DNA of 64,000 nucleotides. Source: Forficula auricularia (Eukaryota; Arthropoda; Insecta; Dermaptera; Forficulidae). The stretch is from contig JALMQS010000225.1 of the NCBI GenBank assembly GCA_024734495.1, forward strand, positions 2,877,650-2,941,649. Reading direction: 5' to 3'. The notes under the pieces are model-generated. The model did not search any database, was not told the DNA's origin, and saw only the letters and a program-made list of their open reading frames with translations. This document shows positions 3,956 through 56,773 of the stretch, in pieces. How positions within the stretch are numbered: the stretch's first letter is position 1; each line of letters starts with the position of its first letter. The position numbers were made by a program, and so were the translations under genes.

Positions 3956-4145
3956 TAAGTAGGTTATAATGAAAGGCAGTCCAAATTATTTAAATTTTTT
4001 ATTCAAATACCGACATTTCGGGGAGCTTTTCCATCAATAACTATTTATTACCCTGAAGAAGGAGAGAAAAGGTCTCCGAAACGTCGGTACTTGGATAAAA
4101 ATTTTAAATAATTTGGACTGCCTTTCAATATAACCTACTTATTAC
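3955..4145. mobile_element. Foldback element E3 with hammerhead
   Basis: Inverted arms 3955-4020 and 4078-4145 (GTAGGTTATAATGAAAGGCA and its near-complement, continuing through AATTATTTAAA). The right arm includes the 3' part of a hammerhead motif read on the plus strand. The left arm carries only the matching GAAA-side remnant on the minus strand (CCGACATTTCGG). This is the same group as the elements at 45.4, 46.1 and 52.0 kb. Confidence 0.8.
4048..4089 (+). ncRNA. Type I hammerhead ribozyme motif (E3)
   Basis: Core strand CUGAAGA at 4053-4059 and GAAA at 4078-4081. One extra A follows the core, then helix II GGAGA/UCUCC with a purine-rich loop. Helix I is UACC (4049-4052) with GGUA (4086-4089). 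Helix III would be the palindrome ACGU (4081-4084) with C4085 as the residue before the scissile bond. ACGU has no loop, so it can pair only between two copies or after rearrangement. The pairing is read directly; activity is inferred. Confidence 0.68.
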
Positions 4146-4369
4146 TTAAGACCTTTTCTATTTATTAATTTATTTAATATATTTGCGAAAATCATAAATA
4201 AAATTGAAAAATCATCTTTTTGGAAACATGAAATTACCTAATTATATTGGTAGATAAGAAGACAAATTATTTATTTAGAGTTAAAATCTTAAACTCTTTT
4301 GAATAATAACAGAAAAAATATAGATATAATACTCATTATTATTATTGTTCAGTTCCATAATCACAGTAT

Positions 4370-4586
4370 TAGATATAACAAATCAGAGTGAAAAAAAAGG
4401 AAACAATTAAACACCGTGTTAAATCACACGACCAATAGCAACATTTCGTTAAATTATTGTAGCTTCATCAGTGATTCAATTGTAGTTATTTTTTGTATGA
4501 AGCTAAAATAAATTAGCGAAACGTTGCGATTGGTATTAACACAGTGTTTAATTCTTTCCTTATTTTGCTCTGATTTATTATATAAA
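4370..4586. mobile_element. Foldback element E4 with two decayed hammerheads
   Basis: Nearly the whole element is palindromic: arms about 4374-4472 and 4488-4585, sharing AATCAGAG, AATTAAACAC and the GTGTTAA region. The minus strand of the left arm keeps CTGATGA (4465-4471) and GAAA (4444-4447) but its helix II is broken. The plus strand of the right arm keeps helix II GCTAA/TTAGC and GAAACGTT but has lost the CTGATGA strand. The two arms have decayed in complementary ways. Confidence 0.75.
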
Positions 4587-5179
4587 ATACTCATTTTTAA
4601 AAATATTTTCACATCCATATAAATAATATATTTTATTCTTATCATTAAACTAATATTTCTCTTTCAAACAAAATTATAATTTTCAACCTATTATCTCTAA
4701 AATGCAGTGGCAAAAATCAAACTTTTATATCTACCTATTCACAACAAATAAATATAAAAATAAAGAAAATTTTTTAACTATCATACTTATTTTTTTATTT
4801 TATTTTAAATAGATACCTATATTTTTCAATTATCTTGTGAAAATTTTTAAAAATGTCATCTGAAATCTCTCAAATTAAATATAAAAGTTCAAATTGCCGA
4901 TAGTACCTATCTTCCTACTCAAATTTTAATTCAAAATAATTTCTTTATTTTTCTCAATTCATTTAATACTTATTTTCTTAAATATAATACTTAATTTTCT
5001 TGAATGACAACCTTAAGATGATTTATCATTTCCTTAAGCGATAGGATTCAATTTTTTGACTATAAATTTCAACTTTTTATGAACGTTCAATAGTTGTTTA
5101 ATCTCTCTTTTGATGATATGGTCAAAAAATCCGCTTAAAATAATGGTGAGGGCAAATCAATAGAAAATAATGCAAACAG
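4587..5179. other. AT-rich intergenic sequence
   Basis: No inverted repeat, RNA motif or coding signal seen. Confidence 0.5.
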
Positions 5180-5305
5180 ATTAGAATAGAATCCGCCTCT
5201 AACTCCAATAATAATATTATCATGTAAATGACCGGAAATCCATTTGCCCCTGGCCAACTGCAATCCGTCGATTGCCACCCGGCTGCTCTGGCAACCTCCG
5301 CCAAT
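5180..5305. promoter_or_regulatory. Small higher-complexity island
   Basis: A 125-bp block of balanced composition (around TGACCGGAAATCCATTTGCC and GCCACCCGGCTGCTCTGGC) within AT-rich DNA. No long frame. Possibly a conserved non-coding element; nothing here identifies a function. Confidence 0.25.
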
Positions 5306-6783: not shown

Positions 6784-6845
6784 TGGATATGTATAATAAT
6801 TTAATTCTGAAAACTGGATATGTATAACAATTTAATTCTGAAAAC
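6784..6845. repeat. Two-copy 31-bp tandem repeat
   Basis: The unit beginning TGGATATGTATAA at 6784 repeats at 6815 with a single-base difference. Just downstream (about 6885-6910), AATCAACTCTGCTACTCTTGG matches the 3' end of the group 3 hammerhead elements, so a degraded element may end here. Confidence 0.8.
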
Positions 6846-6849
6846 TTAT

Positions 6850-7849
6850 GGCGAGTAATCAAGCAGTGGACTCGTTGATTTGTCCTTATGAATCAACTCT
6901 GCTACTCTTGGAAATCTAAATATTTTCATTGAATATATTAGGTAATTATGATTCAAAAAAATATTTATATTTATTTTGAATTTAATTAAATAATAAATTA
7001 ATTAATTTTTTGAAATTCTTTTAATTAACTTTTTTAACTAATAAATATACATTAAAACTAACCAGGTTAATTTCGAATATAAAGTTACTTATGTATTAGG
7101 TAGATAAATAATATACGAAATTTTGTCTGGAATGATAAATTTTTCCTGATTAGATTTATTAGGTAATGAAAATTAAAATGCAATTAAATATAATGATTGC
7201 GCATTTGTTTTTGTTAAACTAATGATTATCCTAATCTATCATTAATGAGGATTTAAAAATCTCTCGTCGACTTTCATATTTATAGAATACAATCCGAAAT
7301 AATTCATAGCGAGTGATAGCGGCGGAAAAATTATCTCAAAGAACATGGGAGGGAAAAAAAAATAGAAAAACATTAGAACATGTGTTAATGTATTTTTAAT
7401 TAATATTTTATTTATATTAAGACGGATGAACAACATATCAAATAATGGATAGAACATATAAATATTAATTTCAGTAAATAGTAAGGAATTTAAAAAAGTA
7501 AAAAATGTTTTTTACTTTACCTCGAATAATAAAATATTTTTCTCATTAGCTCATCTTTCTTAAAATATTTTAATTATTTATTTACAAAAGAAATTGATAT
7601 AATATTTTTTAAAGTAAAGTATATTTTCTAATATTTCTTTCAAAATTATTTTATGAAAATAACTAAATTAAATTAAGCTTAAAAGAACCGTGTTTTGGTG
7701 GCCCTATTTTTTATTTTAATGAATTACAGGCGAGTTATGGAAAAAAAGTTGAAATAAAATCCAACTAGTATTTAATACTTTATTTTTAAAATATAAATTT
7801 AAGTTGTTTATAAAATTAACAATTTCACAATTATTTTTTATGTGAGTTA
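6850..7849. other. AT-rich intergenic sequence
   Basis: No recognisable gene or element. Short frames on the minus strand are low-complexity and hydrophobic with no family resemblance. Confidence 0.5.
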
Positions 7850-9962
7850 GTACAAATTCCCAAAAAATCTTACCTTTTAAAATAATGATTATAAAATATT
7901 ATATTTAAAATATGAATTTTTAGTAATCACACATACTAATTATATAATTATTTATTGAACAAGATCAAATAATACAATACAAATTTACAACTACGTCGTT
8001 ATTCTGCGATCGAAACGTTCTATTGTATTATTTGTTCTTGTTCAAAAATAATTGTTATACTAATTATGTGTGATTTCACTAAAAATTCAAATTTTAAATA
8101 TATTATTTTTAAAAATTAAGATTTTTTTTTACAAATTTCTAATTACTTTGAAAAAATTATAGAAATTGTTAATTAAAAATAACTTATTCTGCATCGAAAC
8201 GTCGTTGGGGAATTGTATTATTTACTTATTCAATAAATAATTATAATGAATTATGTGTGATTTCACTAAAAATTCAAATTTAATCAAATAATCACAAAAA
8301 TAAAGCTTCAATAGCTTCATTACTAAATAAATATATTTTATTTTAAATAAATTATAATTTTTTCGTTAAATGTTCATATTTTATATTTTTTTTAAATACT
8401 TATATATTTATCACACGCATTTACTAAACTTATCTATAGTTAGAAGGGAATATTTTTTTTAATTTTTTTATTTTTTAATTAAATTAGGAAAAACTATCTT
8501 AATTTTTTACATAATTTTTTCTCGAAAATAAAATAATTATAATTGGTTCATTAATTTATTTTTTCTTGATTTGATAAAGTATGAATACTATGAATTGATT
8601 TATTTTTTTTTTTACAAAAAAATGAAAATTAAATTTTTTGAATGAATTTTTCCAAAAAATAATTTCTTTTTTCTAAAATAATTATAAATATCTATATTTT
8701 ATTTAAAGTATAGAAAATTTTTTGGAAAAAAATTTTTAGAAACTTTTTAAAATTTAAAATTACTATGTAGGTTTCACATAAAAAAATACTAAATACATAA
8801 AATAAAGATCATGCTTGTATACCACGATTCTATATATATTCTGTAAAGAAATAAATAGATTTTCGAAATATTTTTTATATATTTTTTGAAAATATATTAA
8901 AAATATAAAATTTTTGTGTTAAATTTATATAAAATTTATACTAGAGCGACATAAAATAATTTATTTTAAGAATATATCGAAAACATAAACTTTATATTAA
9001 TTTAACACAAAATTTTATATTTTTAATATATTTTCAAAAATATATAAAAATCATATTTCGAAAATCTATTTAGTTTTCATATAGTTTTGATATAAGCCTC
9101 ATCTCTTACTCTCGGTGTCCTTTGTGAACTCCTGAAGATGGGCTTATACTCTGAAATATATATTTATATATAGAGTCGTGCTAAACAAGCATCTGATATT
9201 TTATTTATGTGAAACCTATCTAGTATTTTATATTTTAAATTTCAAAAAGTTTCTAAAAAATTTCAAAAAAAAAATTTCAACAATTTTTTACTTTATTAAA
9301 TATGTTTCCCCAAGAACACTATTCTCCCTTAACAAAACATATTTTATTATTTATTATTATTATTTAATTTTTAATATATTTATTTCTATAGCGTACCATA
9401 TCGTCAAAAAATATAAAATATGAAGATTTAATGAAAATCATAATTTATTTAAAATTATTAAAAATATTTAGGTTAGTATTGAAGCTATTGAAGCTTTTAT
9501 TTTTGTGATTAATTTGATTAATATTTGAATTTTTATTGAAATCACACATAATTAATTATAATTATTTATTGAGAAACAACAAATAATATAAACAACTACG
9601 ACGTTTCTATCGCAGAATAAGTTGTTATTTATAAAATTAAAAATTTCTATAATTTTCCAAGTGAGTTATTACAGATTTTTTAAAAAAATAATTTTTAAAA
9701 TAATGATTATAAAATTTAAAATTTGAATTTTTAATGTAATCGCCACACAATTAATTATATAATTATTTTTTGAACAAGAACAAATAATACAATAGAACGT
9801 TTCAATCGCATAATAACGTAGTAGTTGTAAATTTGTATTGTATTATTTGTTCTTATTCAATAAATAATTATAATTAATTATGTGTGATTTCACTAAAAAT
9901 TCAAATTTTAAATATATTTAAGTAGAATCATTATTTTAAAAATTAAGATTTTTTTACAAATT
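7850..9962. mobile_element. Nested palindromic element complex E5 (over 2 kb)
   Basis: The left half (7850-8940) is matched in inverted order by the right half (8995-9962). Outer sections 7850-8290 pair with 9530-9962; both carry TGTGTGATTTCACT, CAAATAATACAA and GAAACGT words. Middle sections 8280-8360 pair with 9420-9540 (AAAGCTTCAATAGCTTCA). Inner sections 8755-8935 pair with 8995-9245 (AGGTTTCACATAAA). Non-matching stretches (about 8360-8690, 9290-9400) break the symmetry. The outer sections are themselves palindromic, so this is a foldback of foldbacks. A hammerhead motif lies at 9128-9176. Confidence 0.75.
9128..9176 (+). ncRNA. Hammerhead ribozyme motif with hairpin helix III (E5)
   Basis: Helix I ACUC (9128-9131) pairs with GAGU (9173-9176). 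Core CUGAAGA is at 9132-9138 and GAAA at 9153-9156. Helix III is a real hairpin: AUAUAU 9156-9161, loop AUUU, AUAUAU 9166-9171, followed by A9172 before the scissile site. Helix II (9140-9152) is the weak point, with GGG facing CUCU through G-U pairs. Unlike its relatives, this copy could fold in cis. Confidence 0.5.
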
Positions 9963-10084
9963 TGAAATAGAAAAAAAATGTATGAGTACTGTTCCTGAAA
10001 TAGAAAAACTAAATTTTAATAAAAACTTTGAAACTTGAATGATACTAGGAGTTTGATCTGCATGCAGTTTTGAAAATGCTTGTG

Positions 10085-11164: not shown

Positions 11165-11415
11165 AATATTGCTTAATTGAAGGAGACAATAAAAGAGTGT
11201 GTCTTTTGCTGTAATTATAAATTTTTAATTAATTTATAACGACACAATAGTTTCGAGAGCTTTGCCCTCTTCATCAGTCTATTACAATTGATTCACAGGA
11301 ATTAATGTATGAATGGTAAGTGAGATTTACATGTGGACACACTTGTTTATTGTCTCCTTCAATTTATAAAAATTCTTCTACTCTCGACAAAGAACTTTCA
11401 ATTTAATATTGCTTA
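11165..11415. mobile_element. Group 3 hammerhead element E6 with 11-bp target duplication
   Basis: Element body 11176-11404. The left end ATTGAAGGAGACAATAAAAG is complementary to a matching block at about 11344-11363, and a tail to CTTTCAATTT follows. The body is bounded by perfect 11-bp direct repeats AATATTGCTTA (11165-11175 and 11405-11415). Close relatives are at 28.3, 52.4 and 56.4 kb. A hammerhead core lies on the minus strand. An 11-bp duplication fits a retroelement better than most cut-and-paste transposons. Confidence 0.85.
11241..11280 (-). ncRNA. Hammerhead ribozyme motif (E6)
   Basis: On the minus strand: CUGAUGA (complement of 11271-11277), one extra A, helix II GAGGGC/GCUCUC closed by AAA (six pairs, one G-U), then GAAA (complement of 11251-11254). 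Helix III is altered from relatives (CUAUUGUGUC instead of CUAUAGUC), leaving only an AC/GU pairing. Helix I is poor. Probably a decayed ribozyme with an intact core. Confidence 0.5.
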
Positions 11416-11609
11416 AGCTAAAAATTCTAAAATTTTATCGGATTTTCGTTTTAGTACAAAAATTTTGGCAACAGAACAAACTTAATATGAAATTTCATTC
11501 CCGCGTTATCATGGTTATCTTGGGTACCCGAATTCAAACTGACAAATACAAATCGTCAGAAAAATTACTTTTCTCCACATTTTTCACATTTCTAAGAATA
11601 AACAAGGAA

Positions 11610-11632
11610 AATAATAATAATAATAATAATAA
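11610..11632. repeat. (AAT)n microsatellite
   Basis: Perfect trinucleotide run. It makes an asparagine tract in an otherwise meaningless frame. Confidence 0.9.
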
Positions 11633-11639
11633 AAGATTT

Positions 11640-17060: not shown

Positions 17061-18531
17061 TTTCAATAGAACTCGACCTAACAATATTTAACCTACCGTC
17101 CCAAACTATGGACTCGAGAAAGAGACAAATCGCCCATTGATTTATGGCGTAGAAAAAGAATGCTATTCAAAAACAACAGCAAATTTTATATGAAAACAGA
17201 AAAAAATCATGCATTACTTAGGTATAAATAGGAACTAAAAATGTTAAAGTTGGAGAGGAAAAATAGTATTACAAACATACCATTTAAGCACTTAAAGAAA
17301 TAATAGAGTCATCGAAGTCATTAAAAAATCGCTTTAATGAAATTTATTATTTGCCAAAAAATTTTCCAATTAACCAGTAGGTATATTTCGGATTTTAAGA
17401 TTTTCAAAAAACATATAAATAGGGCGTATATAAAAATTTAAAATTTAATTATTTTAATTGATAGTTTAATTAAAAACAAAAAATAGCAATTCATTAATTG
17501 TTTTCAAAAATAAAAAAGTTATAGGCTAAACAAAAAACAAATCGCGTGACGTCAGAAATCTGCTTAGACACTTTTCTTCTATTTGCAAATATACAGAAGA
17601 CAGTTTTAAATGACCAAAAAAAATGATTATCAATTGTGTTTTGTTTTTAAAAACTAAATAAAATTTATAAATAATATGGTAGTATTTTGCCGCCGGGAAA
17701 TATAATACTTTAATAGTCCATTTTTTGTTTATTTGAAACAGTCTTGTGTACATTTGCAAATGAGAGAAATGTATTAAACTGACTCATGACGTCATTTGCT
17801 TTGTTTCTACTTACGAATATATTTTTTTTTTATTTTAAAAATAAAAATTACATAGGTATTTAATATATAAATTATACTACCTATTAATTTTAAATTCGAA
17901 TTTTTATTTACTTACCCCTTATTGCCTAATAACCAGTTTTTCAGAAGGGGGGGGGGCAGAATAGGCAAAAGTTCGTATTATAAAATTTATAATCTTGTAC
18001 CTACTCGTAATATCATAAAACAGACATTTATCGCATTTGTCTACGTTTTACAGTAAAGAAATGAAATAAGCAAATATAGGCGAAATCCACTTATGAAATT
18101 AATCTTCAAAGACGGAATAGATCGATGTCGTTTAATAAATATTCAATAACGAGGATACAAATGATTATAATATTTTATAGTAATTTAATATTTATTCGCT
18201 AACATGTATCATCTGAAACACAAATATTTGCATGTTTTTACTATGAATTATGATCTGATAATAGATATGATCCATCATTGGATAATCTGTCAAGAGTTTA
18301 TAGAAGTAAACAAATTTAATGTTGTTTTGGTTGTAAGTTGGAATTCTTTTATTCTGTTTGTTATTTAACACCTAATATTGATATCCACCATTTCATTGAT
18401 GGGGTGATAAAATGGTGATGTTTTATCTTCCTCTATGAAAATCTGAGGTAAATTGAAGGCGAATAAATAAATAAATAATTCCGTTAGATGAGTGATTGAC
18501 TCATATCGTGCGTTTAATTCAGTTCCCTCGA
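17061..18531. other. Intergenic sequence with two CRE-like sites
   Basis: Mostly AT-rich. GTGACGTCAG near 17547 and the palindromic ATGACGTCAT near 17787 are consensus-like cAMP-response/AP-1 family sites about 240 bp apart. A G homopolymer run lies near 17947. No coding frame recognised; the 77-codon frame between the sites is low-complexity. Confidence 0.4.
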
Positions 18532-21310: not shown

Positions 21311-21955
21311 TCTTCTATTCTCTGTATGCTTTATCTAGTTAGCTATCTATTTATCTACTATATATAAAGCTTGACCATTTTAGAGAAAAGTTGAGCCAAA
21401 ATGGAATGCGCCAATGACGTCCTCTATGATTTATCTTCGTTCAAACAACCAAGGGATAACGTCACGGATGGCCGACCACTGGGAACACATGCATCGCATA
21501 TTCGAATACAGTCATGCGTTTTGAAAATCTAAAATTTCAACGATCAGTTTGTCAATTTTAATATTCCACTTGGAGGGTTCTCCATAAAAGCCCGTCATGA
21601 AGGGAATCGATTGTTGATTCAGGAAGTTTTTAGTTCATGGTGTTTAGAATCAGCCGCCCACCCACGATCCTTATTTAAACATTCAAAAAACCTCCAACTA
21701 TTGATTCAGATTAAAATTGTATATTTATTTATTTACTATATTTTATGTTGGTTATAGGTATATACATACAGGGTAATTGGTTTTATTTAACCCTTTCCTT
21801 AAAAGGGATTATTATATACCTACTCTATAGCTAATTTGGAGCAAATTTCACCCTATCAACTGAGGTTAAAAATTCATTGGTTTTTGAGTTATTGTAGATT
21901 TTTTTATATTTTCCGACGTTTTAATAAAAACTCCGAATTTAAAAAAATTAGTCTG
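21311..21955. other. Intergenic sequence
   Basis: Moderate complexity to about 21700, then AT-rich. ACAGGGTAATTGG near 21768 resembles transposon-end wording but no partner was found. Confidence 0.4.
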
Positions 21956-22305
21956 GCCACTGAACTGGCACATTTCTAATATCTGGCAAATGAGCGATTG
22001 CTTTGAAAAAATTAATGCCAAGAACATTCGTATAACTAGAAATAAAAGAGTCCTAAATTACAAGTTTTGAATAAAAATTTTAAATATCGTTTAACTCGAA
22101 AAATTGTAACGAAAATCGAGGAAGTTATCACTGTAATTTTTACGCCACGTTTAATAAAAAAAATTTGAGTAATCTTTTTCGATTTAAATATTTGTAATTT
22201 ATGATCTTTTATTTCTAGTTATGAATGTTCTTGTAATAAATATTTTTAAAGCAATCCCTCATTTGACAGCTATTAGAAATGTGCCAATTCAGTGTCCAGA
22301 GCGGA
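21956..22305. mobile_element. Foldback element with diverged arms
   Basis: Arms at about 21956-22070 and 22170-22305 share GGCACATTTCTAAT, GAACATTC and AACTAGAAATAAAAGA in opposite orientation. The centre is AT-rich. No ribozyme core seen. Confidence 0.7.
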
Positions 22306-25490: not shown

Positions 25491-25650
25491 TGAGCTTTTT
25501 ACGACCTGTTTTTTCGTTATCATGATAGACAGAAAAACATAATTTTTGAATATACAATTAAAACAAAGATGCGAGTGTTTTTTTCATAAAATAAGATGGA
25601 ATTTTTTCAAAAAATCAACTCACTTTCGGAACCGTATTTAATATATTTCA

Positions 25651-25860
25651 AAAAAACACAATTCTATGGTTACAATAATTTAAGATTTTAATAGAAAATA
25701 TGTTTACATTTCATGCCAGAGGGCTTCATCCCCCAGGAGTTAAACCAACAGGTTAGTGCTCGGGTTCAACTCCTGGGGAAATTAAACCCTCTGAAATGCA
25801 ATTTAAAATTTTTTTCTACTAAAATCTTAGATTATTGTGACCAGAGAATTGTGTTTTTTT
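25651..25860. mobile_element. Foldback element with GC-rich tip
   Basis: Long hairpin with arms 25651-25746 and about 25761-25860 (CACAATTCT, TTAAGATTTTA, GCATTTCA against complements). At the tip CCCCAGGAGTT faces AACTCCTGGGG. The tip contains GGGTTCAACTCC, similar to a tRNA B-box, but no tRNA folds here. Confidence 0.8.
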
Positions 25861-26686
25861 TTTAATAATTTTTGAAAATCAATGCTGGCACTCGAAAATG
25901 ACAAACATCAAAATTTTCAACATCCACAAATAAATATTCACTTAATTAAAAAAAAATAATAATATTCATTTACTTGAAGTGAATTTGTATAAAATAGTTA
26001 ATTAATGACTGAATTTTTTTATTCAAAGTGACAGTACAATTCTAGTTTCAATTGTCTGGATTTCTCTATACTAGTTTTGAAAGCTCTCGCTCTTACAATC
26101 CAGCCTTTTATATTATCATTAATCATATTAAATATATATTCAAGTACAATACAATAGAAATTTTTTTATATATTCATCCCACACATCACATATTATAATC
26201 AATCGCAGAGAGATATTATTTATCTTTGAAAGAAGAAAAACATTTAACCTCCTATTCCGTCAAGGTAGGGGCAAAATCAAAATAATGATTGTATTTCGAA
26301 AAAGAACATCATCGTCTCACGATATAGAAAACTCCCTTCTCTTCCATAATATGAGATGAAATCACACAATAATTTTTCCTAATCTATTAAAATAAATAAG
26401 TAACTACTGAATCCTGAAATCAACACAAAAATAATTGAAATAATTTTAAATTTACATATTTTAATTTTTGCGAAATAACAAATCGTGTCTGTTCTACTGA
26501 ATAATAGCTGTCTATACTACCACTATAAACGTTCGATTTAATTAAACTACATTATTTTCTTATTGTTTAATGTAGAAAGTTATTAACCTAAGACTACAGT
26601 CGCTAACCCATCGTAAAAATTAAAAAAATATTTAATAACGAATGTTTATTTTAAAATACTTACATAAAAATAATTTTAATTTTTCT
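25861..26686. other. AT-rich intergenic sequence
   Basis: No repeat or coding signal recognised. Confidence 0.45.
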
Positions 26687-27160: not shown

Positions 27161-27208
27161 GTTAAAATAAAAAAATTCCCAAAAACTAATCAAGAAATTA
27201 ATTTTTCT

Positions 27209-37843: not shown

Positions 37844-38444
37844 TTAAGAATTTAGAAAGTATTAAAATGTTTGATATTATAAATGCCTGTCTCTCTGAAA
37901 AAAAAACCGATTTCATATTTGAATTAAGGAGAAAAAGTACTATCGAATCATATATTTTTCTTTCTGAGACAAAAAAAAAGAAATTCTTATTTGTTCCTCA
38001 GAGTTATTGTTTTTGACTTCAGAGAATTAGAAGTCGAAACCAAGTGGAAAACGCGAGAAAATTGTAATAATTATTGTAATTTAGCAATGGAAGATTTTTC
38101 TATTAAATATTAAAAAACACTATTGTTGCCCTAATATTAATATTTACGATTAATAGGTTCATCTAATGGATTGGCGGTTGTCTAAACGTAACGGGTAATT
38201 TCTTACTGTTTTGTTTATGTTGTTGAATGGATTGAAATGGATCCTTGGCTAATAGAACAGTGATACGCAACACAAATACAAATACATTTGAAAAGTCAAA
38301 GCGTGTCTGTGTCTTTATATTTTAAAAAGTTACAACAAAAATAAATTTAAATATAAAATTAAAGATTTGAGCATCTTTTTTTTGAAAATAGTTGGAATGT
38401 TTTTCAAAAAATCAGCTCGGGTTAACCAATGTATACTTATTAAA
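37844..38444. other. AT-rich intergenic sequence
   Basis: No feature recognised. Confidence 0.45.
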
Positions 38445-38610
38445 AAAAAAGAATTTAATTTTTAGGACAAATTTTCTAGAATTTTAGTAGAAATATTTTT
38501 ATATATCGATATCAGAAAGGATACATCACCTCTGATATCGCAATATAAAATTATTTCTACTAAAATTCTAGAATTTGTGCTAAGAATTAAATTCTTTCTT
38601 TTTTAATAAA
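38445..38610. mobile_element. Near-perfect foldback hairpin
   Basis: Arms 38445-38515 and 38530-38610 (AAAGAATTTAATTTTTAGGA, TCTAGAATTTTAGTAGAAAT, GATATCAGA with complements) with a loop of about 14 bp. It lacks a hammerhead core. The TCTAGAATTTTAGTAGAAAT arm recalls the 25651-25860 foldback (TTTTTTCTACTAAAATCT). Confidence 0.8.
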
Positions 38611-40652: not shown

Positions 40653-40868
40653 CATATAAGTATATATGTAGTGGGTTGAAGGAGTTATTCAGCCAAAGCA
40701 AGAATGTACCGGGTCCAATAAAATTCCCAGAATAAAGACGTTTCAGCCTGAATTTATCGGGCCATCTTCAGTTTATTGGACCCTGTGCATCCTTGCTTTA
40801 GCTGAATAACTCCTTCAACCCATTACAAATTAATCACTCCCACGATCTCCAACAGCATATAAGTATAT
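40653..40868. mobile_element. Group 2 hammerhead element E40 with 13-bp target duplication
   Basis: Body 40666-40855, bounded by perfect CATATAAGTATAT direct repeats (40653-40665 and 40856-40868). Arms TAGTGGGTTGAAGGAGTTAT, TCAGCCAAAGCAAGAATG and complements enclose a hammerhead on the minus strand. The right end ATCTCCAACAG is matched by the start of E47. Confidence 0.9.
40731..40777 (-). ncRNA. Type I hammerhead ribozyme motif (E40)
   Basis: Minus strand: helix I AAUAAA (complement of 40772-40777) pairs with UUUAUU (complement of 40731-40736), six Watson-Crick pairs. Core CUGAAGA (40765-40771), one extra U, helix II GGCC/GGCU with an 11-nt loop, then GAAA (40741-40744), palindromic ACGU and C at the cleavage position. 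One of the best-preserved motifs in the window. Helix III again has no loop. Confidence 0.72.
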
Positions 40869-42275: not shown

Positions 42276-42592
42276 TTAAAATTGAAAAGAGCAAATACAA
42301 ATTTTAAGCCTTTTAAATTAAAATCAAACAGAATTATCAGCTAATCACTATCACCTTTTGAGCCTTCTTCTTTCTTCAGAAAAGATGAAGTATTATCTAT
42401 AATTTGGACTGATTACATTTAATAATAAATAATGATTGATTTTCAGGATTTTTAATATTAGACCACCCAAAGTGGTTTTCAGAAACACTACGTTTCGGCT
42501 TATATTTGTGCCTTGTTTTTAATTTTATTTAATTAATCGATAAGACAGCTTTGCGATGAAAAAAATTGTTTTAATAATTTTATGTGATTACT
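42276..42592. other. AT-rich spacer with hammerhead 3' relic
   Basis: On the minus strand near 42488-42530, GGC(10 nt)GCC then GAAACGTAGTG keeps helix II, GAAA and ACGU of a hammerhead, but the CUGANGA strand is missing. Confidence 0.4.
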
Positions 42593-45345: not shown

Positions 45346-45493
45346 AATTGAACGCCATTAATAATCCAATCTGTATCTACAAATTTCAAATTCTCTGGTT
45401 GAATTGGGCTAACCTCCTAAAAAACACTATAATAAGTGGATATTGATGAGGCAGTCCAAATAAAGAGAAGATAATTTAGACTATCTTTTTATT

Positions 45494-45539
45494 CATAAGC
45501 CGACGATTCGGTGGCTTATTACCTCCTTCTTCAGGGTTT
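45494..45539 (-). ncRNA. Hammerhead relic, left arm of E45
   Basis: Minus strand: CUGAAGA (45528-45534) is intact, but GAAA has become GAAU, helix II is disturbed (GGAGG against CCACC), and helix I has a mismatch (AAACC against GGCUU). Probably inactive. Confidence 0.5.
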
Positions 45540-45904
45540 TGAAAAGTCGGTGAAAGAAATCCAATGCGACTTTTTTCTCTGTGTCCTCTTTCAGTTGGAG
45601 TAACAATAATATTATTGGATAAAAAAATACTTGGTAGGTTTCACATTAAGATATAAAAATAAATTGCATTTAATTTTTATATCTTAATGTGAAACCTACC
45701 AAGTATTTTTTATCCAATAATTTAAAAAATGTTTCACCAAGCACCAAATTTCTTAAAAACTATTGAAGAGTTTATAAGAAATTTGGTGTTGGTAACTTTA
45801 TAACATTTTTTATCCAATAATTTCTATAAAAACTATTTAACAATAATATATTGTATATCATTCTCAGCAGAATGTCGTACTGGATTTTCTTCCCTGACTT
45901 TTCA

Positions 45905-45948
45905 AAACCCTGAAGAAGGAGGAGAATAAGCCTCCGAAACGTCGGTTT
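45905..45948 (+). ncRNA. Type I hammerhead ribozyme motif (E45)
   Basis: Helix I AAACC (45905-45909) with GGUUU (45944-45948), five pairs. Core CUGAAGA 45910-45916, extra A, helix II GGAGG/CCUCC with loop AGAAUAAG, GAAA 45936-45939, palindromic ACGU, C45943 before the scissile bond. All core residues are present. Confidence 0.73.
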
Positions 45949-46053
45949 ATGAATAAAAAGATAGTCTAAATTATTTTCTCTTTTTTGGATCATGTCTTTA
46001 TCCACTCAATCCACTTATCAGTCCGTCTCTAAAAATTTCTTCAGTCTTAGTAT

Positions 46054-46632
46054 CTATAATGTAGGTGAACGTTGATGGCGTCCGCGGTGGTTGTGCAAAA
46101 ATCAAGACTATAGAGGTTTTATTATTTTATCATTTATTTGTTAAACCGACGGTTTCGAGATTTGCTCTCTCCTTCTTCACTGGTGCGCAAAAAGTCAATG
46201 AAAAGTAAGTTCTGAAAATCAGTTGCTTTCTGTCTCATGACAATGCCAAAACACATTATAAAAGTTCTTTTTCATCTCGAATAGAAAACAAGTAAAAAAC
46301 AATTGATGATCCATATCTCATTAACATATGGATCATCAATTGCTTTTTACTGTTTTCTATTCGAGATGAAAAAGAATTTTTACAATGTTTTTTTGGCATT
46401 GTCAAAGGAGACAGAAAGTAACTATTTTTTGAACTACTTTCATTGACTTTTTTGTTACCCTGAAGAAGGAGAGAATAAATTCCGAAACGTCGGTTTAACA
46501 AATAAATGTAAAATAATAAAACCTCTATAGGCCCTATTTTTTACAACCACCGTGGACTGCTTTCATCAACATCCAATTACATATTTATACCAGTCCGTCT
46601 CTAGAAAATCTCTATCAATCTTATACTATAAT
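46054..46632. mobile_element. Group 1 hammerhead element E46, tandem to E45
   Basis: Body about 46061-46625 between CTATAAT copies at 46054-46060 and 46626-46632; the first is also the right flank of E45. Arms of about 230 bp include GTTGATG, CGGTGGTTGT, CCTCTATAG, ATTTGTTAAACCGACG and GGCATTGTC. The centre is a near-perfect hairpin on CAATTGATGATCCATAT. A fragment occurs at 22978. Confidence 0.85.
46453..46500 (+). ncRNA. Type I hammerhead ribozyme motif (E46)
   Basis: Helix I UGUU-ACC (46453-46459) pairs with GGU-UU-AACA (46492-46500) around a small bulge. Core CUGAAGA 46460-46466, extra A, helix II GGAG/UUCC, GAAA 46484-46487, ACGU, C46491. The left-arm counterpart (about 46141-46185, minus) has GUGAAGA instead of CUGAAGA and is likely dead. 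Confidence 0.65.
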
Positions 46633-47215
46633 AAATTATCTTTTATTAATTTTTAATTCTAAAATTTGTTCTTCTAAAAAACTAATAATCATTTCTTTAC
46701 TATTTTGTTGGAGATCGTGGGTGTGATAAATTTGTATTTATTCAGCCAAATCAAGGAGGCACCGGGCACATTAAGATTCCTAGTATAAGACGTTTCTTCA
46801 GTTCAATGGGAATTATACACATAGGAGTAGGTAATATGGTAAATAATAATCCATAAAAACATAATATTTATATAATTATTATATTTATAAATTTAAGAAT
46901 TTTAGAGTCTTTTGTCAATCCTCTTAAGGGGGGAAAAATTGTATTTTTATAAATTTAATAAAATTTAATTTATTTATTTGTTATTTTAAATTTCAATTAT
47001 GTACTCTTTATATTTATTAGGTTAATCATGTTAAATATATTTTTTTAAATATGTATTAAAAAGATCGATAAAATTAATTATTTATTTATTATTTTGATAT
47101 TTGATAGGTACTTTTTGTCTTAATTAGGTTAATATAGTCAATAGATAGTATATATATTTATGCAAATATCAAAAAGGTTAATAAAAAATCATAATTAAGC
47201 CTGAATTTCAAATGC

Positions 47216-47371: not shown

Positions 47372-47417
47372 AATAAACTGAAGATGGTCCGATAAATTCA
47401 GACCGAATCGTCTTATT
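47372..47417 (+). ncRNA. Near-intact hammerhead motif (E47)
   Basis: Helix I AAUAA against UUAUU, core CUGAAGA 47378-47384, extra U, helix II GGUC/GACC (perfect), then GAAU instead of GAAA, CGUC. Relative to E40, helix II has changed on both sides yet stays paired. The A15.1 to U change likely weakens or abolishes cleavage. Confidence 0.6.
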
Positions 47418-47624
47418 CTGGGAATTTTATTGTACCCGGTGCATCCTTGCTTTGGCTGAATTTTTCCTTCAACCCACTACAATTTCTTTTTTATTACATA
47501 GCTTTTAAAATTAAAATAAAATTCATATAAAATCCAAGAATCGAAACTTCTCTTGAGGTTAAAATAAGTATTTATTATACTTTGTGAATAGATTTATATG
47601 GTGTGATATAATATTGTATATTGT

Positions 47625-48001
47625 TTTGTAAGATCTTAGGCAATTGGATTAATAAATTAAATTCAGAGTTCTATATTGAATAAAACGGACGTTTCGTAAC
47701 TATATTTGCGACTTCTTCAGCGACTTATTCTCCTGCTCAATTGATGTCTGATATTATTACGAAACATTCTATATAAGATAAATAGATCTGATTGTGCTTT
47801 CTATGGTTCTTAGTTTTATAACTGTAATGAAAAATTAATGTGTTTAAGAATAAGAAAAATTAAAAAAGATAGAATGTTTCGTAATAATATCAGACAATTG
47901 AGTTGAAGAATAAGTCACTGAAGAAGTCGCAAATATAGTGACTTATTCAATATAAAGCTCTGAATTTAATTTATTTATCCAATTTCCTAAGATATTACAA
48001 A
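47625..48001. mobile_element. Group 5 hammerhead element E47b
   Basis: Arms TTGTAAGATCTTAGG, TTAAATTCAGAGTTCTATAT, GATATTATTACGAAACATTC and complements, total about 375 bp. The left arm carries a hammerhead (minus). The right arm keeps CTGAAGAAGTCGC but has lost the GAAAC segment. Confidence 0.82.
47682..47726 (-). ncRNA. Hammerhead ribozyme motif (E47b)
   Basis: Minus strand: helix I AAGUCG with CGUUUU (four to five pairs including a G-U and one mismatch). Core CUGAAGA (complement of 47714-47720), extra A, helix II GUCGC/GUUAC with one mismatch, GAAA (47692-47695), ACGU, C. Core intact, stems weaker than in groups 1 and 2. Confidence 0.6.
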
Positions 48002-50559: not shown

Positions 50560-50730
50560 TCTCAAATTTAAGGATCGCGGTGTTGGTTTATAGTGAAACA
50601 TTGTTAAAATTAAATTAGGTTGGAGTTGGTGGTGTTTCACAAAGGAAAAATTAAAATACAAAGATTTTTTTAGTTTACTCTATATATTTCGAGCTCTTAA
50701 CTCATCGTCAGGAGAACATTGACTAAAGAT
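50560..50730. mobile_element. Group 4 hammerhead element E50
   Basis: GGTGTTGGTTTATAGTGAAA near 50578, repeated in altered form as GGTTGGAGTTGGTGGTGTTT (50619), matches phrases in E1 and E34. A hammerhead follows on the minus strand. Element ends are not defined. Confidence 0.55.
50673..50717 (-). ncRNA. Hammerhead ribozyme motif, AUAUAU type (E50)
   Basis: Minus strand: helix I GUUCUC with GAGUAAAC (CUC/GAG plus GUU/AAC around a bulge). Core CUGACGA (complement of 50705-50711), extra U, helix II GAGUU/AGCUC with loop AAG (five pairs, one G-U), GAAA, palindromic AUAUAU, then A before the scissile bond. N7 is C here, which the consensus allows. Confidence 0.65.
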
Positions 50731-51998
50731 AACATAAAATAATGAACAGAATTTATTTTAATATGATGGACTGTTATTTATGACTAAGTGTAAATATGAA
50801 AGAATTATCAGGGGATGGTATGGCCTTAGAGCCGAAAGATTCTCTCAACCTAACTATACTGTTCTCATCTGGAATTTCGCATTGAGCTGTTTATGAAGTG
50901 TTTTTTTTTATTCTTTGTCTTTTAGTATCCGTAGAAATTACAGCCCTGCTATAGTACAAATTCTTATGAGCATTAAAATATATTTATATACAAATAACAT
51001 TTGTTAGATTTTATCCTGTTGTCAATTTTCTTCCTTATTCTGAAAAATATAATTTTAATTTCAAAATTAACTTTGAAAATAACGAACAAGAGTCTTTTCT
51101 CTAATTAAGTAATTAGACATCAAGGTTCTCTAATTAGATCATTATCTAGAAATGTGTAGTTCTTCATTATCAAGGCAACTTTCTCATATACAAAATTAGG
51201 ATAATTACACAATTCTAGAATTAATTTAAATTTCCGACCAAGTTGGAAAATTTTACGAATTCATCTCTTTTTTGAGAAAATATAATAAAGATTAAACATT
51301 CGAAGTTTTAAGCTCGGTACAGAAGCATTTTGAAGAGAATAGGGGAAATAAAATGGAGAGGGGTCAAAACTAAATCCTATTTATTTATTTAGATATTTTA
51401 TTTTAAGATTAAGAGATCATTATATTTTGGTGGAAATCAGACCAAAAATTAGGCGAAACACGGAAGTTAGAAATTTGAACCCTTTTTCCGATTTGAATCA
51501 AATTTTGAATATATACGAGGGGGGATGCAGATGTATGATTAAGACACGAGAGGACCACATCACATTTTTTTTAAATTGAAAAACTCACTTGCTTTTGTTC
51601 TCAATAGTATTTGAAAGATATGTGTGGAAAATGTGAAAACTTTTTTAAAACTCAGTGCACTTTCCTCAAATTTAAATGATTTTACAATTTTTCGTCAGAG
51701 AACGATTAAGCCTATAAAGTTGAAACCTGGCAGAAAAGTGCAGCATTATTAATATAGACTTAACCCCCGAATTTCCCCTCATTAAAAAAAAAACTTTTCG
51801 TTTCTGATTTTCTGTATTTTTGAACAAGGAATTTTGAAACTAAAAATCCCCAAATTCAATCATATCTTGGTTTTGGAAATAGTATAAACATTCTCAAACA
51901 CAAAGAAAGTTTCTACAATCTTGTTTTTGAATTATCACAAGTGTCAGAATTAATAAAAAGATTGACACTTTGCCAAAAAAAGCATGCTTGAAAACAGT
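50731..51998. other. Intergenic sequence with dispersed-repeat wording
   Basis: About 51480-51950 shares phrases (TTTCTGATTTTCTGTATTTT, TATAAAGTTGAAACCTGGCA) with 24.8-25.1 and 30.7 kb. Probably an old repeat. No gene. Confidence 0.35.
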
Positions 51999-52340
51999 TC
52001 TAGAATGAGTGGATTTTGATGAGGCAGTCTAAATTTCAAAAAAGAGAGATAATTTAAACTATCTTTTTTATTCAAAAACCGACGTTTCGGAGGTTTATTC
52101 CCACCTTCTTCGGGATTTCGAAAGGTCAATAAGGAAATTCAATGTGACATTCCCCTCTGTCGACCTTTCTAAACCCTGAAGAAGGAAGGAATAAACCTCC
52201 GAAACGTCGGTTTTTTAATAATAAAATATAGTTTAAATTATCTCTCTTTTTGAATTTTACACCTCATCATCAAAATCCACTCAATTCACTTATTATTCCG
52301 TCTCCAAATACCACTTCAATCTTATAGTTTATAGTCTAGA
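51999..52340. mobile_element. Group 1 hammerhead element E52a
   Basis: Body about 52005-52334 with TCTAGA on each side (51999-52004, 52335-52340). Arms AGTGGATTTTGATGAGGCAG, AATTTAAACTATCTTTTTTA and complements. The right end CCGTCTCCAAATACCACTTC is shared with E45 and E46. The left-arm ribozyme (about 52076-52118, minus) has CCGAAGA in place of CUGAAGA. Confidence 0.82.
52171..52213 (+). ncRNA. Type I hammerhead ribozyme motif (E52a)
   Basis: Helix I AAACC (52171-52175) with GGUUU (52209-52213). Core CUGAAGA 52176-52182, extra A, helix II GGA(A)GG/CCUCC with a one-base bulge, GAAA 52201-52204, ACGU, C52208. Core residues complete. Confidence 0.7.
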
Positions 52341-52423
52341 TTTTTGAAATCTCTAATCACTATGAGAAAAATAAATTATAAAATTTCGAGTGAATTTAAT
52401 AACGCCTGCCGAGGGTACCGAAT

Positions 52424-52700
52424 AATAATTAATTATTGAAGGAGACAATAAAAGTGTGCGTCTTCTGCTGGAATTATAAATTTTATTTATAACGAGACTA
52501 TAGTTTCGAGGGCTTTACCCTTTTCTTCAGTCCATTAAAATTGACTCACAGGAATTACTGTATGAAATAATGCCCTCTAAACTATATTCGTTATAAATAA
52601 AATTTATAATTCCAGCAGAAGACACACTCTTTTATTGTCTCCTTCAATATATTAAAATTCCGCAACCTCGGCACAAAAACTTTCAATTTAAAAATTAATT
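52424..52700. mobile_element. Group 3 hammerhead element E52b with 11-bp target duplication
   Basis: Body 52435-52689 between AATAATTAATT (52424-52434) and AAAAATTAATT (52690-52700), 10 of 11 identical. Ends ATTGAAGGAGACAATAAAAG and CTTTCAATTT match E6. The arm block CTTCTGCTGGAATTATAAAT is palindromic with its partner near 52590. Confidence 0.88.
52493..52533 (-). ncRNA. Hammerhead ribozyme motif (E52b)
   Basis: Minus strand: core CUGAAGA (52524-52530), extra A, helix II AGGG/CCCU with loop UAAAG, GAAA (52504-52507), then palindrome ACUAUAGU (52497-52504) and C at the cleavage position. Helix I is only GA/UC. ACUAUAGU could pair with a second copy over eight bases. Confidence 0.6.
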
Positions 52701-53924: not shown

Positions 53925-54125
53925 TTCTATTGGTATCTGTTCGTTTGTAAACAGCGCTGACTGGTGGTCAAAATAAAAACTAACACATTCGGGTCATATT
54001 TATTTTTATTGTATAAAGAAAATTATTAAAAAACAAACAAACAAGATAAATTATTATTGGTTTGTTATCTTATGCAATATTGAGTGCTTTATTTAAATAT
54101 TCTCTTATTTAAAAAATTATCCTAG
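53925..54125 (-). repeat. Dispersed repeat G, copy 2
   Basis: Reverse-orientation counterpart of 38925-39115, sharing ACTGGTGGTCAAAATAAAAA and ATTTTTATTGTATAAAGAAA. Confidence 0.75.
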
Positions 54126-55129
54126 GCATGATTGATGGTTGTGCAGCTGATCCGAGTAGTTTAGTTATATTTTTGTCCCCGAGACTGCGTAGTGCCAAGA
54201 ACCACTTACCAATTAGACCTGGTCTCCTTAGATTAAAAAGAACATTTAAAAGAATGAGAAACGGAAGTGATTTTATGGGCTAGTTTGGAGTAGAAAGCTG
54301 GCCTTGAACACCTGAAGGTTGTAGGTCATAGGGATAAACGATTTGGCAAAATTGTTGGTTCGTTTTTTTATCAAATTTGACAGAAATGGGGTCTTAAGAT
54401 TTCGAAAATCGCTTGTTTCTTACAAATTAGGTTGTTGGGGGATTATCGACTAAAACTCGCCATTGTTCAACTTCCTCTATTCGACCAATTATTAAATAAA
54501 GAATTGGAGAACGATCATCGATGTCTAGATACAAGTATTAAAACTTGTACTAGACGGTCTCACGCTCTGAATAGAGGAATACAACTCATCTTCGAAGTTG
54601 AATGTTTCTATTCGATTTTGCAAAAGAATAGTGAAGATATACTACAGAAATGATCCTGTGAAGTATGATATCCTACAGGGAATGGACAGAAACGGTTCTA
54701 CGGTGAGCTAGGGAATTGTGTGAGTGAGATTTGGCCCAGTCTCCTATTAGGGCTCTCTTCTGAATTGCATTCTGAGTGGAAAATGAATACTTGGATAATT
54801 AATTGGAGTTTCAAATTTCTTAGATTCACATACCATTTTTGAGTAATTACAATTGTTCCGGGTCTAGACGTTACAAACGGCAATTTTTGTTCAAAATCCT
54901 TATTTTTAACTATAAAGGTATACATCTAATTAGAACACAAAAGTTGTAAGTAATATCTATAATTTTGTAATTAAAAGATATCAAAAAGTTCATTTCCGGT
55001 GATGAATTTCCAATACTTCACTTATTCTGACTAAGTTAAAGTAATATGATTAACCCAACAACTAATAAACAGTAAGATAAATGAGCGAACAGTTTTAATG
55101 GGAAAAAGTACCTTTCAACCCCAATCTCT
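54126..55129. other. Intergenic sequence, possible coding relics
   Basis: A plus-strand frame open from 54381 to 54653 is less biased than its surroundings but matches nothing I know. No splice sites or partner frames support it. Confidence 0.35.
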
Positions 55130-55770
55130 CCGTTTCCTTGCCTGACTTCATGGTCATCTTCGAGTTGATGATTAATGTGCTGATAATTGTGATAAATTTA
55201 ATTAAATCCCAAAATGACAAATTGGTGTCATTATATAAATTGCTTCTTTACAAAAATCGAGCCGTGAATTTTTGCTATGAAAATCGGCGCCGCTGCAAAC
55301 ATTTTCTAATAATAACCCAAAGATTAATTAAATTACCTAAACTAATTACTGACTTATTAAACCCCACACAATAATAATAATAATAATAATAATATTCATG
55401 TAAATTGTTTGGGCTGATGACTTAATTCGGCGCTCTGCGCGAACGTCTTGGCCCCCCACTCCCATAATTAATGATGATTATGATTACATTCATATGTCTT
55501 GAGAGAATTTCTCTAATAAAATGACGACAAGACGGTGCCTGCTGACTAATGACGTAATCAACGCCAAGCAGAAAGCTCGGGCCAGGATATACTCGCGGAA
55601 AAATTGGCGTTAAACATTCCGCATTCTCAAGGGGCCATTGGCGGAGCCCGAGAAATTGGGCGCCCCTTGAACGAGGCGCCAAGTTGAATGGGCGCAAACA
55701 GCCAGCCACTGAACATTGCATGTCCGAACCCATCAGCAGTTCACCTTTGTTAATTATATTCCATAATTGA
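55130..55770. promoter_or_regulatory. Homeodomain-site-rich block and GC-rich island
   Basis: The first half (55160-55380) has many TAAT/ATTA cores (GATGATTAATGTGCTGATAA, AAATTTAATTAAATCCC, ACCTAAACTAATTACTGAC). A short (AAT)n run follows, then a GC-rich half with TAATGACGTAATCAACGCC, AAGGGGCCATTGGCGGAGC and CCTTTGTTAATTA (HMG-like). Frames of 78 and 117 codons are unrecognised. The mix suggests an enhancer; inference only. Confidence 0.38.
55370..55393. repeat. (AAT)n microsatellite
   Basis: Perfect trinucleotide run within the regulatory-like block. Confidence 0.9.
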
Positions 55771-56401
55771 GACATTTCATGACTAAAAGTTAAACTTTAC
55801 TAATAAATGCTGCTAACATAAAAGAATTATGATTACCGGACTTATTATATTATTTATCGTCTAATTTGTGATTTATATATGGGTTGCACATGTTGGATTT
55901 GTGAATCGCCGGAACCTGATAAGAGGATAAAATGTTCAAATTAGATCCGATTTGAATCTTTAGATTAGTCAATTTCCCACGAATAAAGTATTCTAACCTG
56001 TAAAGTCCATACTAGTTGATTTTCATTAACACATATTAATAATTAACTAATGTGAAATTAAAATAATTAGAAAGGTCCTTTCGCCACAAGTGTTAAATAA
56101 AAAATATTAGATTATAACTATAACTTAATTTTTTATAATAGTTTAAGTCTCTCTCTATGCTTTGGTGAAGTTTCAATCACACATTAGTGAGCAAATTTTT
56201 GAAAATAAAATTTTTTAAAATGTAAATATTTTTCTCAAATGCTTATAGAAAATTAAGATCTTGACACTTTCTCTTGAATTATAGTACTATTAGTTGATTA
56301 TATAAAGTTAAAAAAACTAATAATTAGCTTTTGAAACATGCAGGTTACTTTTTTGCAAAAAATATGTCATTGACCGGGAAATTTACTGAGAAATTTACTT
56401 T
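55771..56401. other. AT-rich intergenic sequence
   Basis: No feature recognised. Confidence 0.45.
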
Positions 56402-56773
56402 AAAAAATCACAAAGAGAAACAAAGAGGTTGTCATCTGCTTGATGCAAATAAACATACACACATATATATCGAGATGATATATCTGTATATATATTATTT
56501 ATTTGTTTGAGACTATAGTTTCGAAGACTTGGTCTTCATCATCAGTCTTTTTTTAATTATAAATGTTTTTCAGTGAGTCAATATCGTATGGATATTGAAA
56601 ATTTGGTTTTCCTTCTTCACTGGTGGTCAGCTTAGAACTAAAGAACATTTCATCTCGATATATATGTGTGTATGTTTATTTGCATCAAGCAGATGAACCT
56701 CTTGTTTCTCTTTGCGAATCAACAACTCTGCTACTCTAGGCAAAACAAAAACTTTGCAATTTAAAAAATCACA
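56402..56773. mobile_element. Group 3 hammerhead element E56, perfect 11-bp target duplication
   Basis: Body 56413-56762 between identical AAAAAATCACA (56402-56412 and 56763-56773). The 3' end CTGCTACTCTAGGCAAAACA to CAATTT is shared with E6, E28 and E52b. The arms differ: ATCTGCTTGATGCAAATAAA and ACATACACACATATATATCG with complements. So one family 3' end carries different arm sequences. Confidence 0.9.
56509..56547 (-). ncRNA. Hammerhead ribozyme motif (E56)
   Basis: Minus strand: core CUGAUGA (56539-56545), extra U, helix II GAAGAC/GUCUUC with loop CAA (six perfect pairs), GAAA (56519-56522), palindrome ACUAUAGU (56512-56519), C at the cleavage position. Helix I near the core is only GA/UC. 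The best helix II in the window. Confidence 0.68.

Follow-up and report, generated by a model that had tools for sequence, protein, structure and literature searches.

Minimal hammerhead ribozymes of Penelope-like elements (PLEs) were reportedly described by Cervera and de la Pena in 2014, and a paper by Lunse, Weinberg and Breaker from 2017 is said, by its title, to deal with the dimeric action of these ribozymes. According to review summaries, PLE hammerheads usually lack a real helix III in the monomer (PMC6155905, PMC7761336), and their role was called a mystery in a review of 2020 (PMC7761336); PLE transposition itself is described as relatively little known (PMC11167929). The present work concerns a 64,000-nucleotide (nt) stretch of the genome of the insect Forficula auricularia (assembly GCA_024734495.1, contig JALMQS010000225.1, positions 2,877,650 to 2,941,649), hereafter called the window, for which an earlier note had listed eleven hammerhead motifs on small foldback retroelements. 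Most probably, these are minimal type I hammerheads of PLE pseudo-long terminal repeats (pLTRs), carried on head-to-head pairs without an open reading frame (ORF) which would be made by target-primed reverse transcription from both strands. The pLTR origin was found directly in four units (termed B1, B2, B28k and B3) and, judging from the shared plan, is likely for the others.

Like the minimal hammerheads of PLEs, as far as these are summarized in reviews, the motifs of F. auricularia have type I topology, no helix III, an association with pLTRs and many dispersed non-coding copies (PMC6155905, PMC7761336). The elements resemble Penelope of Adineta vaga and PAc of Anolis in having an ORF with GIY-YIG and reverse transcriptase (RT) domains, pLTRs, an optional tail of ~30-40 bp and AT-rich targets (PMC3846280, PMC11167929), and a hammerhead at the ORF start is a trait shared with PAc (PMC11167929). 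Head-to-head inverted pLTRs with palindromic junctions are present in Adineta vaga as well, for which target-site duplications of 8-10 bp are given (PMC3846280). In contrast to both systems, the window units consist of two pLTR ends without an ORF, a single strong tail was present in 25 out of 25 genomic copies, and the copy number is very high. Metazoan retrozymes are likewise small and non-coding with type I hammerheads, but they are described as direct repeats of hammerhead-bounded units, whereas the window units are head-to-head and have a PLE tail (PMC7229834, PMC7761336). The hammerheads, the tail and the inverted pLTRs have all been described from PLEs before, and it is the one-tail asymmetry that is of interest.

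Identification of the hammerhead motifs

Both core strings, CTGANGA and GAAA, were present at all eleven sites, as had been claimed. The bare pattern is unspecific, matching 20 times in the window, with nine matches outside the earlier list (one of these, at 4471, is a putative decayed hammerhead). A strict descriptor, which allowed one mismatch at most in the core and demanded helix II as well as a helix I set against the base that follows the cleavage triplet, was run with 100 order-2 Markov sequences as the null; it matched nine window sites at a score of at least 14, compared to a null mean of 0.59 and maximum of 4, and four sites at a score of at least 20 (null mean 0.01). Six of the nine matches were among the listed sites (4048, 40731, 45905, 46453, 50673 and 52171), the remaining three being the mirror arms at 52113 and 45534 and a match at 9407, which is probably due to chance. 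For eight of the nine, the best fit had CTGANGA followed by one extra base, and GAAA separated from the cleaved UH pair by two bases.

Overall, nine of the eleven claimed hammerheads are supported. The site at 50673-50717 (-) is uncertain, with a descriptor score of 19 (null mean 0.09 at 17 or above), no detected palindrome and no PLE match, and the site at 9128-9176 (+) is unsupported: its helix II, already called weak in the earlier note, is made of G-U wobbles and no PLE match was found. The further claim of at least eight decayed sites holds for 45534(-), 52113(-), 47378(+) and 4471(-); four more, at 42482-42520(-), 47912-47949(+), 46782-46807(-) and 46148-46179(-), are only weak (E 0.015-0.1). 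Two further arms begin within the ribozyme, near 4030(-) and 52565(+).

The source genome comprises 1,061,512,967 bases in 845 contigs. An exact 16-mer of the 3'-half of the B-type ribozyme occurs in it 35,097 times (17,358 + 17,739) and a 16-mer of the A-type ribozyme 19,412 times (9,745 + 9,667), together more than 54,000 exact occurrences, while the reversed-sequence control 16-mers were absent genome-wide. The window contains six exact ribozyme 16-mers against 3.3 predicted from the genome mean and is, therefore, ordinary for its genome, so that the density of the motifs, taken earlier for an unusual cluster in one 64-kb window, is not exceptional. The ribozyme patterns were not found at any locus in viral contigs and matched three isolated places in prokaryote genomes, which were taken for chance. 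As an explanation of the whole set, random matching in AT-rich DNA is favored by the 20 hits of the bare pattern, nine of them off the list, and 9128 and perhaps 50673 may be such cases; for the supported sites it is refuted by the shuffled controls, the covariation of the helices (see below) and the 16-mer counts, leaving it a probability next to nil.

For each 16-mer, the first 100 places of the listing (contigs C1-C4) were used to count the orientation of neighboring ribozymes up to 1 kb apart. Head-to-head neighbors made up 17 of 18 and 18 of 21 pairs, respectively. The retrozyme reading considered in the earlier note is not sustained by this head-to-head arrangement with a one-sided tail: the direct tandem units of a metazoan retrozyme would be on the same strand, an orientation found in only 1 of 18 and 2 of 21 adjacent pairs. 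A single genomic locus, L024, holds three same-strand A-type ribozymes at 1665, 1830 and 2005, spaced 165-175 nt, i.e., a tandem pLTR array, within one RNA of which a ribozyme dimer could form.

Structure of the ribozymes

In families A, C and D the GAAAC string runs directly into GUC or GUU, and in family B into UAUAGUC. A monomeric helix III, as belongs to type I hammerheads, was not found at the sites, and only the minimal PLE variant fits them. Helix-II registers were surveyed in 91 instances (overlapping loci counted twice) from the window and the loci, with 40 distinct strings, to which A-family copies contributed many. The best pairing required exactly one extra base behind CTGANGA in 38 of the 40; of the other two, one paired best with no extra base and one equally in all registers. 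The link was ACGT or ACTATAGT in 33 of the 40. Beside the PLE minimal hammerheads, compared via review summaries, the extra base and these predominant links are features of the window and of the genomic loci. An extra core nucleotide was reportedly found in a viroid hammerhead by De la Pena and Flores in 2001, following A9; the extra base is the only likeness to that otherwise unrelated ribozyme.

The link is self-complementary, with self-duplex energies of -1.7 kcal/mol for ACGU and -7.2 kcal/mol for ACUAUAGU, and therefore helix III could be built from two RNAs. We infer that the ribozyme may work as a dimer through this helix-III link (ACGU or ACUAUAGU).

Covariation was analyzed over nine pairs in nine window arms (six A, two C2-type and one C3), a set that includes related arms. 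Paired cells amounted to 83.8% versus 67.0 +/- 3.5 after shuffling (0 of 500 shuffles; with related arms among the rows this count is not a probability), the covariation score was 0.444 versus 0.150 (0 of 500), and every slid register scored lower. Helices I and II of the A and C arms are supported by this covariation. A compensatory helix II was also seen between the two C2-type copies (GGCC/GGCT versus GGTC/GACC), and pairing is kept among the B-type helices II of genomic loci (GAGGGC/GCCCTC, GAGTGC/GCACTC, GAGGAC/GTCCTC), with a weak helix I in family B. A covariance model, R1, made from the nine A/C arms recovered all of its training arms at E<=5.2e-12 and gave no new confident site in the window, the next match having an E of 0.015.

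Penelope-like source elements in the same genome

A genome search with the GIY-YIG domain gave 3,423 first-look candidates, 150 of which were scored, all above the cut-off, and the best 30 were fetched with 1.5-kb flanks. The scored loci include several open frames of 825-864 amino acids (aa). Locus L064, with same-strand copies 2,909 bp apart, has an 858-aa stop-to-stop frame with RVT_1 (1.6e-16) and GIY-YIG (8e-6) domains, and the two arms of the window unit B3 are 91.9% (234 bp) and 90.1% (121 bp) identical to its pLTR. The core, helix II and link of B3 recur in 9 of 10 fetched 10-kb PLE loci, the tenth having another type.

A strict hammerhead was found in 25 of the best 30 GIY-YIG loci of the 150 scored. 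These belong to the B3 type (13), the GAAACGTT type (9) and the B1/B2 type (4), with two in L054. In all 25 loci one hammerhead lies downstream on the GIY-YIG strand at one of a few recurrent distances; it is on this fixed strand and these recurrent distances, in place of a random-locus control, that the connection between hammerhead and GIY-YIG rests. The same-strand downstream hammerhead of L054 is of the GAAACGTT type, which leaves L047, L049 and L060 as the only loci tying the B1/B2 type to GIY-YIG. Units B1, B2 and B28k match these three loci, a second GIY-YIG family, at 83-92% identity (the domain linked to these units is GIY-YIG, the full frame with RT being that of the B3 source): B1 is 91% identical to L060 over 149 bp and also similar to L049 and L047, and B2 is 88% identical to L060 over 138 bp. 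Unit C2 matches L058 (79% over 100 bp) and L067 (88% over 50 bp). The earlier proposal of type I hammerhead-like motifs on Penelope-related inverted repeats is thereby established through pLTR identity for B1, B2, B28k and B3; for the A and C families it would follow from the shared plan. The head-to-head pairing, the one-sided tails, the target-site duplications and the presence of source elements in the genome go beyond the earlier note.

Two further observations were made at these loci. L068 (9332/9112) and L070 (2794/2515) contain head-to-head ribozymes of a family that is absent among the window sites and whose helix I (GGGCCA/TGGCCC) is strong. In L071, the PLE is adjoined by a 322-aa open frame at 2994-3959 (-), which we take to be a Tc1/mariner-type transposase from its appearance.

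Anatomy of the window units

Twenty-five inverted-repeat clusters were found below 60 kb. Those units with supported hammerheads consist of two head-to-head arms, at least one of which has an outward-reading ribozyme; within a family the 3' ends of the arms are constant and the 5' starts variable. Unit B3 (56399-56773) is a head-to-head pLTR pair with a 14-bp duplication TTTAAAAAATCACA at 56399 and 56760, a tail on the right and a hammerhead at 56506-56550 (-) with helix II GAAGAC/GTCTTC, link ACTATAGT and a predicted cut after 56511. Unit B1 (11165-11416), bounded by the 12-bp duplication AATATTGCTTAA at 11165 and 11405, carries the ribozyme in its left arm (11238-11282, -; helix II GAGGGC/GCTCTC, link decayed, G at position 17), and its right arm is 5'-truncated, starting well past the ribozyme, and has the tail. 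In unit B2 (52407-52692) the ribozyme of the left arm (52491-52535, -) has the link ACTATAGT and a predicted cut after 52496; the right arm is truncated inside loop II, there is a right tail and a partial left one, and the duplication is uncertain. None of these three hammerheads passed the strict descriptor. Unit B28k (28292-28452; 12-bp duplication ATTTAATAGTCT, right tail) has no ribozyme left, both arms starting past it, a few to ~20 nt downstream of the cut as read by eye.

Unit C2 (40653-40868) is bounded by a 13-bp duplication CATATAAGTATAT at 40653 and 40856 and has a right tail and one central ribozyme at 40731-40777 (-) with helix I AATAAA/TTTATT, helix II GGCC/GGCT and a predicted cut after 40737, the palindrome being closed at AATAAA. 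A second C2-type hammerhead is located on a single arm at 47372-47418 (+), with helix II GGTC/GACC and the core GAAA changed to GAAT. The head-to-head pair C3 (47592-48035) has a ribozyme at 47680-47726 (-) and a mirror copy at 47912-47949 (+) without GAAACGTCCGTT; neither a duplication nor a PLE locus match was found for it. The palindrome D1 (4365-4591) has a decayed hammerhead at 4471 (-) and, in the mirror arm near 4495 (+), helix II GCTAA/TTAGC together with GAAACGTT; by eye it resembles the GAAACGTT-type ribozyme of the GIY-YIG loci L036, L037 and L044, and it gave no BLAST match to GIY-YIG loci.

Unit A4 (51995-52342), a head-to-head pair with a right tail and no clear duplication, belongs to a genome-wide family of ~315 bp. 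Its hammerhead A4R at 52171-52213 (+) has helix I AAACC/GGTTT, link ACGT and a predicted cut after 52208, and in the mirror copy A4L (52074-52119, -) the core CTGA is changed to CCGA. The adjacent units A2 (~45435-46053) and A3 (~46054-46625) occupy 45426-46634, each with a right tail, and a 10-bp repeat ACTATAATAA is present at 45426 and 46625. The hammerhead with the best score in the window is A2R at 45905-45948 (+; predicted cut after 45943), its mirror copy A2L at 45497-45539 (-) having GAAT for GAAA. A3R at 46453-46500 (+) has a predicted cut after 46491, with its mirror A3L decayed at 46148-46179(-). A2 and A3 belong to different A subfamilies and stand side by side, with CTATAAT at the left, in the middle and at the right, as if the second of them had used the duplication of the first one as its target. 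Nested in the center of A2 is an inverted-repeat element (45607-45763) that is 90% identical to a stretch in L073. The remaining A-type hammerhead, A1R (4048-4090, +), with a predicted cut after 4085, is situated in a palindrome at 3954-4143, of which the mirror arm starts in loop II.

A one-sided tail was thus recognized in B1, B28k, B3, C2, A2, A3 and A4, with a partial second one in B2 (for A1, C3 and D1 it was not established), and in B1, B28k, C2 and B3 one end extends 25-42 nt past the palindrome. The tail of B3 corresponds to the beginning of the stop-to-stop frame of the PLE (INNSATLGKTKT), before the first ATG at residue 32. All seven window tails are on the right in the window orientation, probably by chance; among the 25 genomic copies analyzed below the sides were split 12 to 13. 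Target-site duplications were searched in 23 palindromes as an exact repeat of at least 12 bp bounding the unit plus its right tail. They were found in four of the 23, namely B1 (12), B28k (12), C2 (13) and B3 (14), all of hammerhead families; palindromes without a hammerhead relationship had a flanking repeat of at most 8 bp, and random interval pairs gave a repeat of at least 12 bp in 1 of 300 cases.

These findings also bear on the idea that the units are DNA foldback transposons or miniature inverted-repeat transposable elements that contain hammerhead-like sequence by chance. Short, palindromic units in AT-rich surroundings without an ORF would agree with it, and hammerhead-free palindromes do occur in the window, but a one-sided tail past the palindrome, the position of the B3 tail within the PLE open frame and the identity of the B arms with sequence beside GIY-YIG do not, making this a very improbable origin. 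Symmetric terminal inverted repeats reaching both duplications were not found, and for the B units the possibility is contradicted.

None of the 72 window frames of at least 70 aa matched Pfam, and the window units are non-autonomous fragments without RT or GIY-YIG coding of their own. In the minimum-energy structures predicted for eight complete units, the main pairing partner of the ribozyme is the opposite arm in six units (A1, A2, A3, A4, B2 and C3), whereas in the other two, C2 and B3, it forms a fold of its own. Consequently, reading through a typical unit is predicted to give a hairpin RNA with its ribozyme masked; if the ribozyme acts, this is presumably in the source elements, where copies 2.9 kb apart have the same orientation, and not in the window fragments.

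Genomic copies of the A4 family and origin of the units

A genome search with A4 gave 4,454 first-look candidates, of which 40 were scored; 30 loci were returned and 25 copies, including the A4 of the window, were used, leaving out four second views of the same unit and L020, which has the same ends as L021. In all 25, one side had a strong tail whereas the opposite side scored much lower, L028 having a partial tail there. Flush duplications of at least 7 bp were present in 13 of the 25, compared to 18 of 2,000 random placements. The head-to-head junctions were mapped in 24 copies (L018, with an unrecognized left core, was dropped; L011, L014 and L016 map poorly), with positions good to a few bases: 22 of the 24 were distinct, the left arms extending 0-56 nt and the right arms 10-61 nt past the core, with a microhomology of 0-5 nt. 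As many as 47 of the 48 arms, in copies chosen by similarity, run through the ribozyme and, therefore, their template was uncut there, which fits the in-vitro finding for PAc that cleavage is unneeded for insertion (PMC11167929).

We consider that such units would form in the following way. The PLE enzyme would make one staggered cut, and reverse transcription would be target-primed from both strands; one strand would be primed at an outer RNA start site and the other at an inner one, so that the tail would appear on one arm only; and the two cDNAs would meet by short microhomology, giving a private head-to-head junction and a short duplication. Priming from both strands would be the likely source of the paired arms, and the 25 A4-type copies suggest the use of one of each start site. 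The protein of PAc cuts and extends both strands, and it has internal RT start sites, the interval between which equals the tail (PMC11167929).

The strongest rival is that a master palindromic RNA is inserted whole in trans by the PLE enzyme, in the manner of a short interspersed nuclear element, with no palindrome formed at insertion. The uniform length of the A4-type copies (296-342 bp) would be expected of such copying, as would the near-complete span of the query in 39 of the 40 best B2 matches (including the window's own), although the B2 genomic matches do not separate this possibility from de novo formation. The nearest neighbor of an arm was the same-side arm in 30 of 50 cases, the other-side arm of another element in 15 and the sister arm in 5, which may point to copying as a unit. 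It is at odds with the 22 of 24 junctions that differ (three mapping poorly), with the finding that, at a majority of 60%, no column tells left arms from right ones, and with the different truncation of window units of the same family, and is unlikely in our opinion. Rather less probable is self-priming, in which the antisense RNA or the first cDNA would fold back and prime its own copying. For Adineta, the palindromic sequences of the inverted junctions led to the proposal that an antisense template primes itself (PMC3846280), and some junctions of F. auricularia likewise fall in short self-complementary stretches (B28k, and the A4-type center AATGTGACATT). A fold-back should, however, give matching 3' extents of the arms, whereas 25 of 25 copies are one-tailed (one with a partial second tail), and the arms have separate 5' ends.

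As an extension of both-strand priming, the helix-III-less hammerhead might serve mainly as a dimerization tether, the link (ACGU or ACUAUAGU) holding a pair of RNAs together within one PLE particle; a single cut would then be primed on both strands, with one RNA for each of the start sites, 1 and 2. This is an improbable suggestion, somewhat more so than self-priming; if true, every insertion would be head-to-head and one-tailed, and it would explain why the motif is kept though cleavage is dispensable in vitro.

Several observations weigh against formation by both-strand priming of PLE hammerhead RNAs, either in the identity of the motifs or in the mechanism. Five of the eleven listed sites (9128, 11241, 47682, 52493 and 56509), including four of the nine supported ones, did not pass the strict descriptor; 11241, 52493 and 56509 are supported by their match to pLTRs of GIY-YIG loci, and 47682 by the covariation of its helices in the nine-arm set and by its palindrome. 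The covariance-model search suggested in the earlier note formally went against the motifs as far as Rfam is concerned, since none of the Rfam hammerhead families was reported by cmscan of the window, either at the gathering threshold or at E<=10; this silence is to be expected from motifs without helix III. The helix I energies of single arms are weak, B3 having only 2 bp beside the core, and model R1 detected family B through B2 only, at E 0.3; what unites the families is therefore their PLE context more than a common profile. The A family, with four of the eleven sites, could be given no autonomous partner among 40 GIY-YIG loci; an A-type ribozyme lies 1.4 kb past the GIY-YIG match in L063, beside that locus' own B3-type, and a decayed one in L072, apart from its own ribozyme. 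No RT or GIY-YIG was found in the read-through frames of five 4.5-4.9-kb regions, which gave one weak unrelated match (the 28-kb and 56-kb regions being covered by the search of frames of at least 70 aa only).

On the side of the mechanism, A1, A4, B2 and C3 have no clear target-site duplication, a 13-bp repeat left of A3 was rejected as such since it is tail sequence common to A2 and A3, and 12 of the 25 A4-type copies are without a flush duplication. Furthermore, the selection of these copies by similarity to A4 biases them to an A4-like structure and narrows their total length, and central deletions in a palindrome copied as a unit could also account for their distinct junctions. Finally, in the PAc study the two strands did not differ in their start sites (PMC11167929).

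Other features of the window

The sole Rfam match over the gathering threshold was a U3 small nucleolar RNA gene at 54467-54672 (-), with 106.7 bits, other matches being sub-threshold and mostly to microRNA families on hairpins. Further palindromes, at 2616-2872, 7800-8186, 9667-9969, 17426-17911, 21952-22300, 25650-25860, 26674-27173 and 38437-38609, had neither a hammerhead core nor a flanking repeat of more than 8 bp and represent other foldback families. Complex satellites with periods of 336 and 134 bp and inverted copies occupy 60350-63450.

Significance

A very abundant class of hammerhead-like RNA can go undetected by the Rfam hammerhead models. The genome of F. auricularia contains PLE pieces with ribozymes by the tens of thousands, and many of these are small with clean boundaries. 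Their one-tail asymmetry, distinct junctions and duplications can serve as records of single integrations, which makes two-site priming on both strands directly testable.

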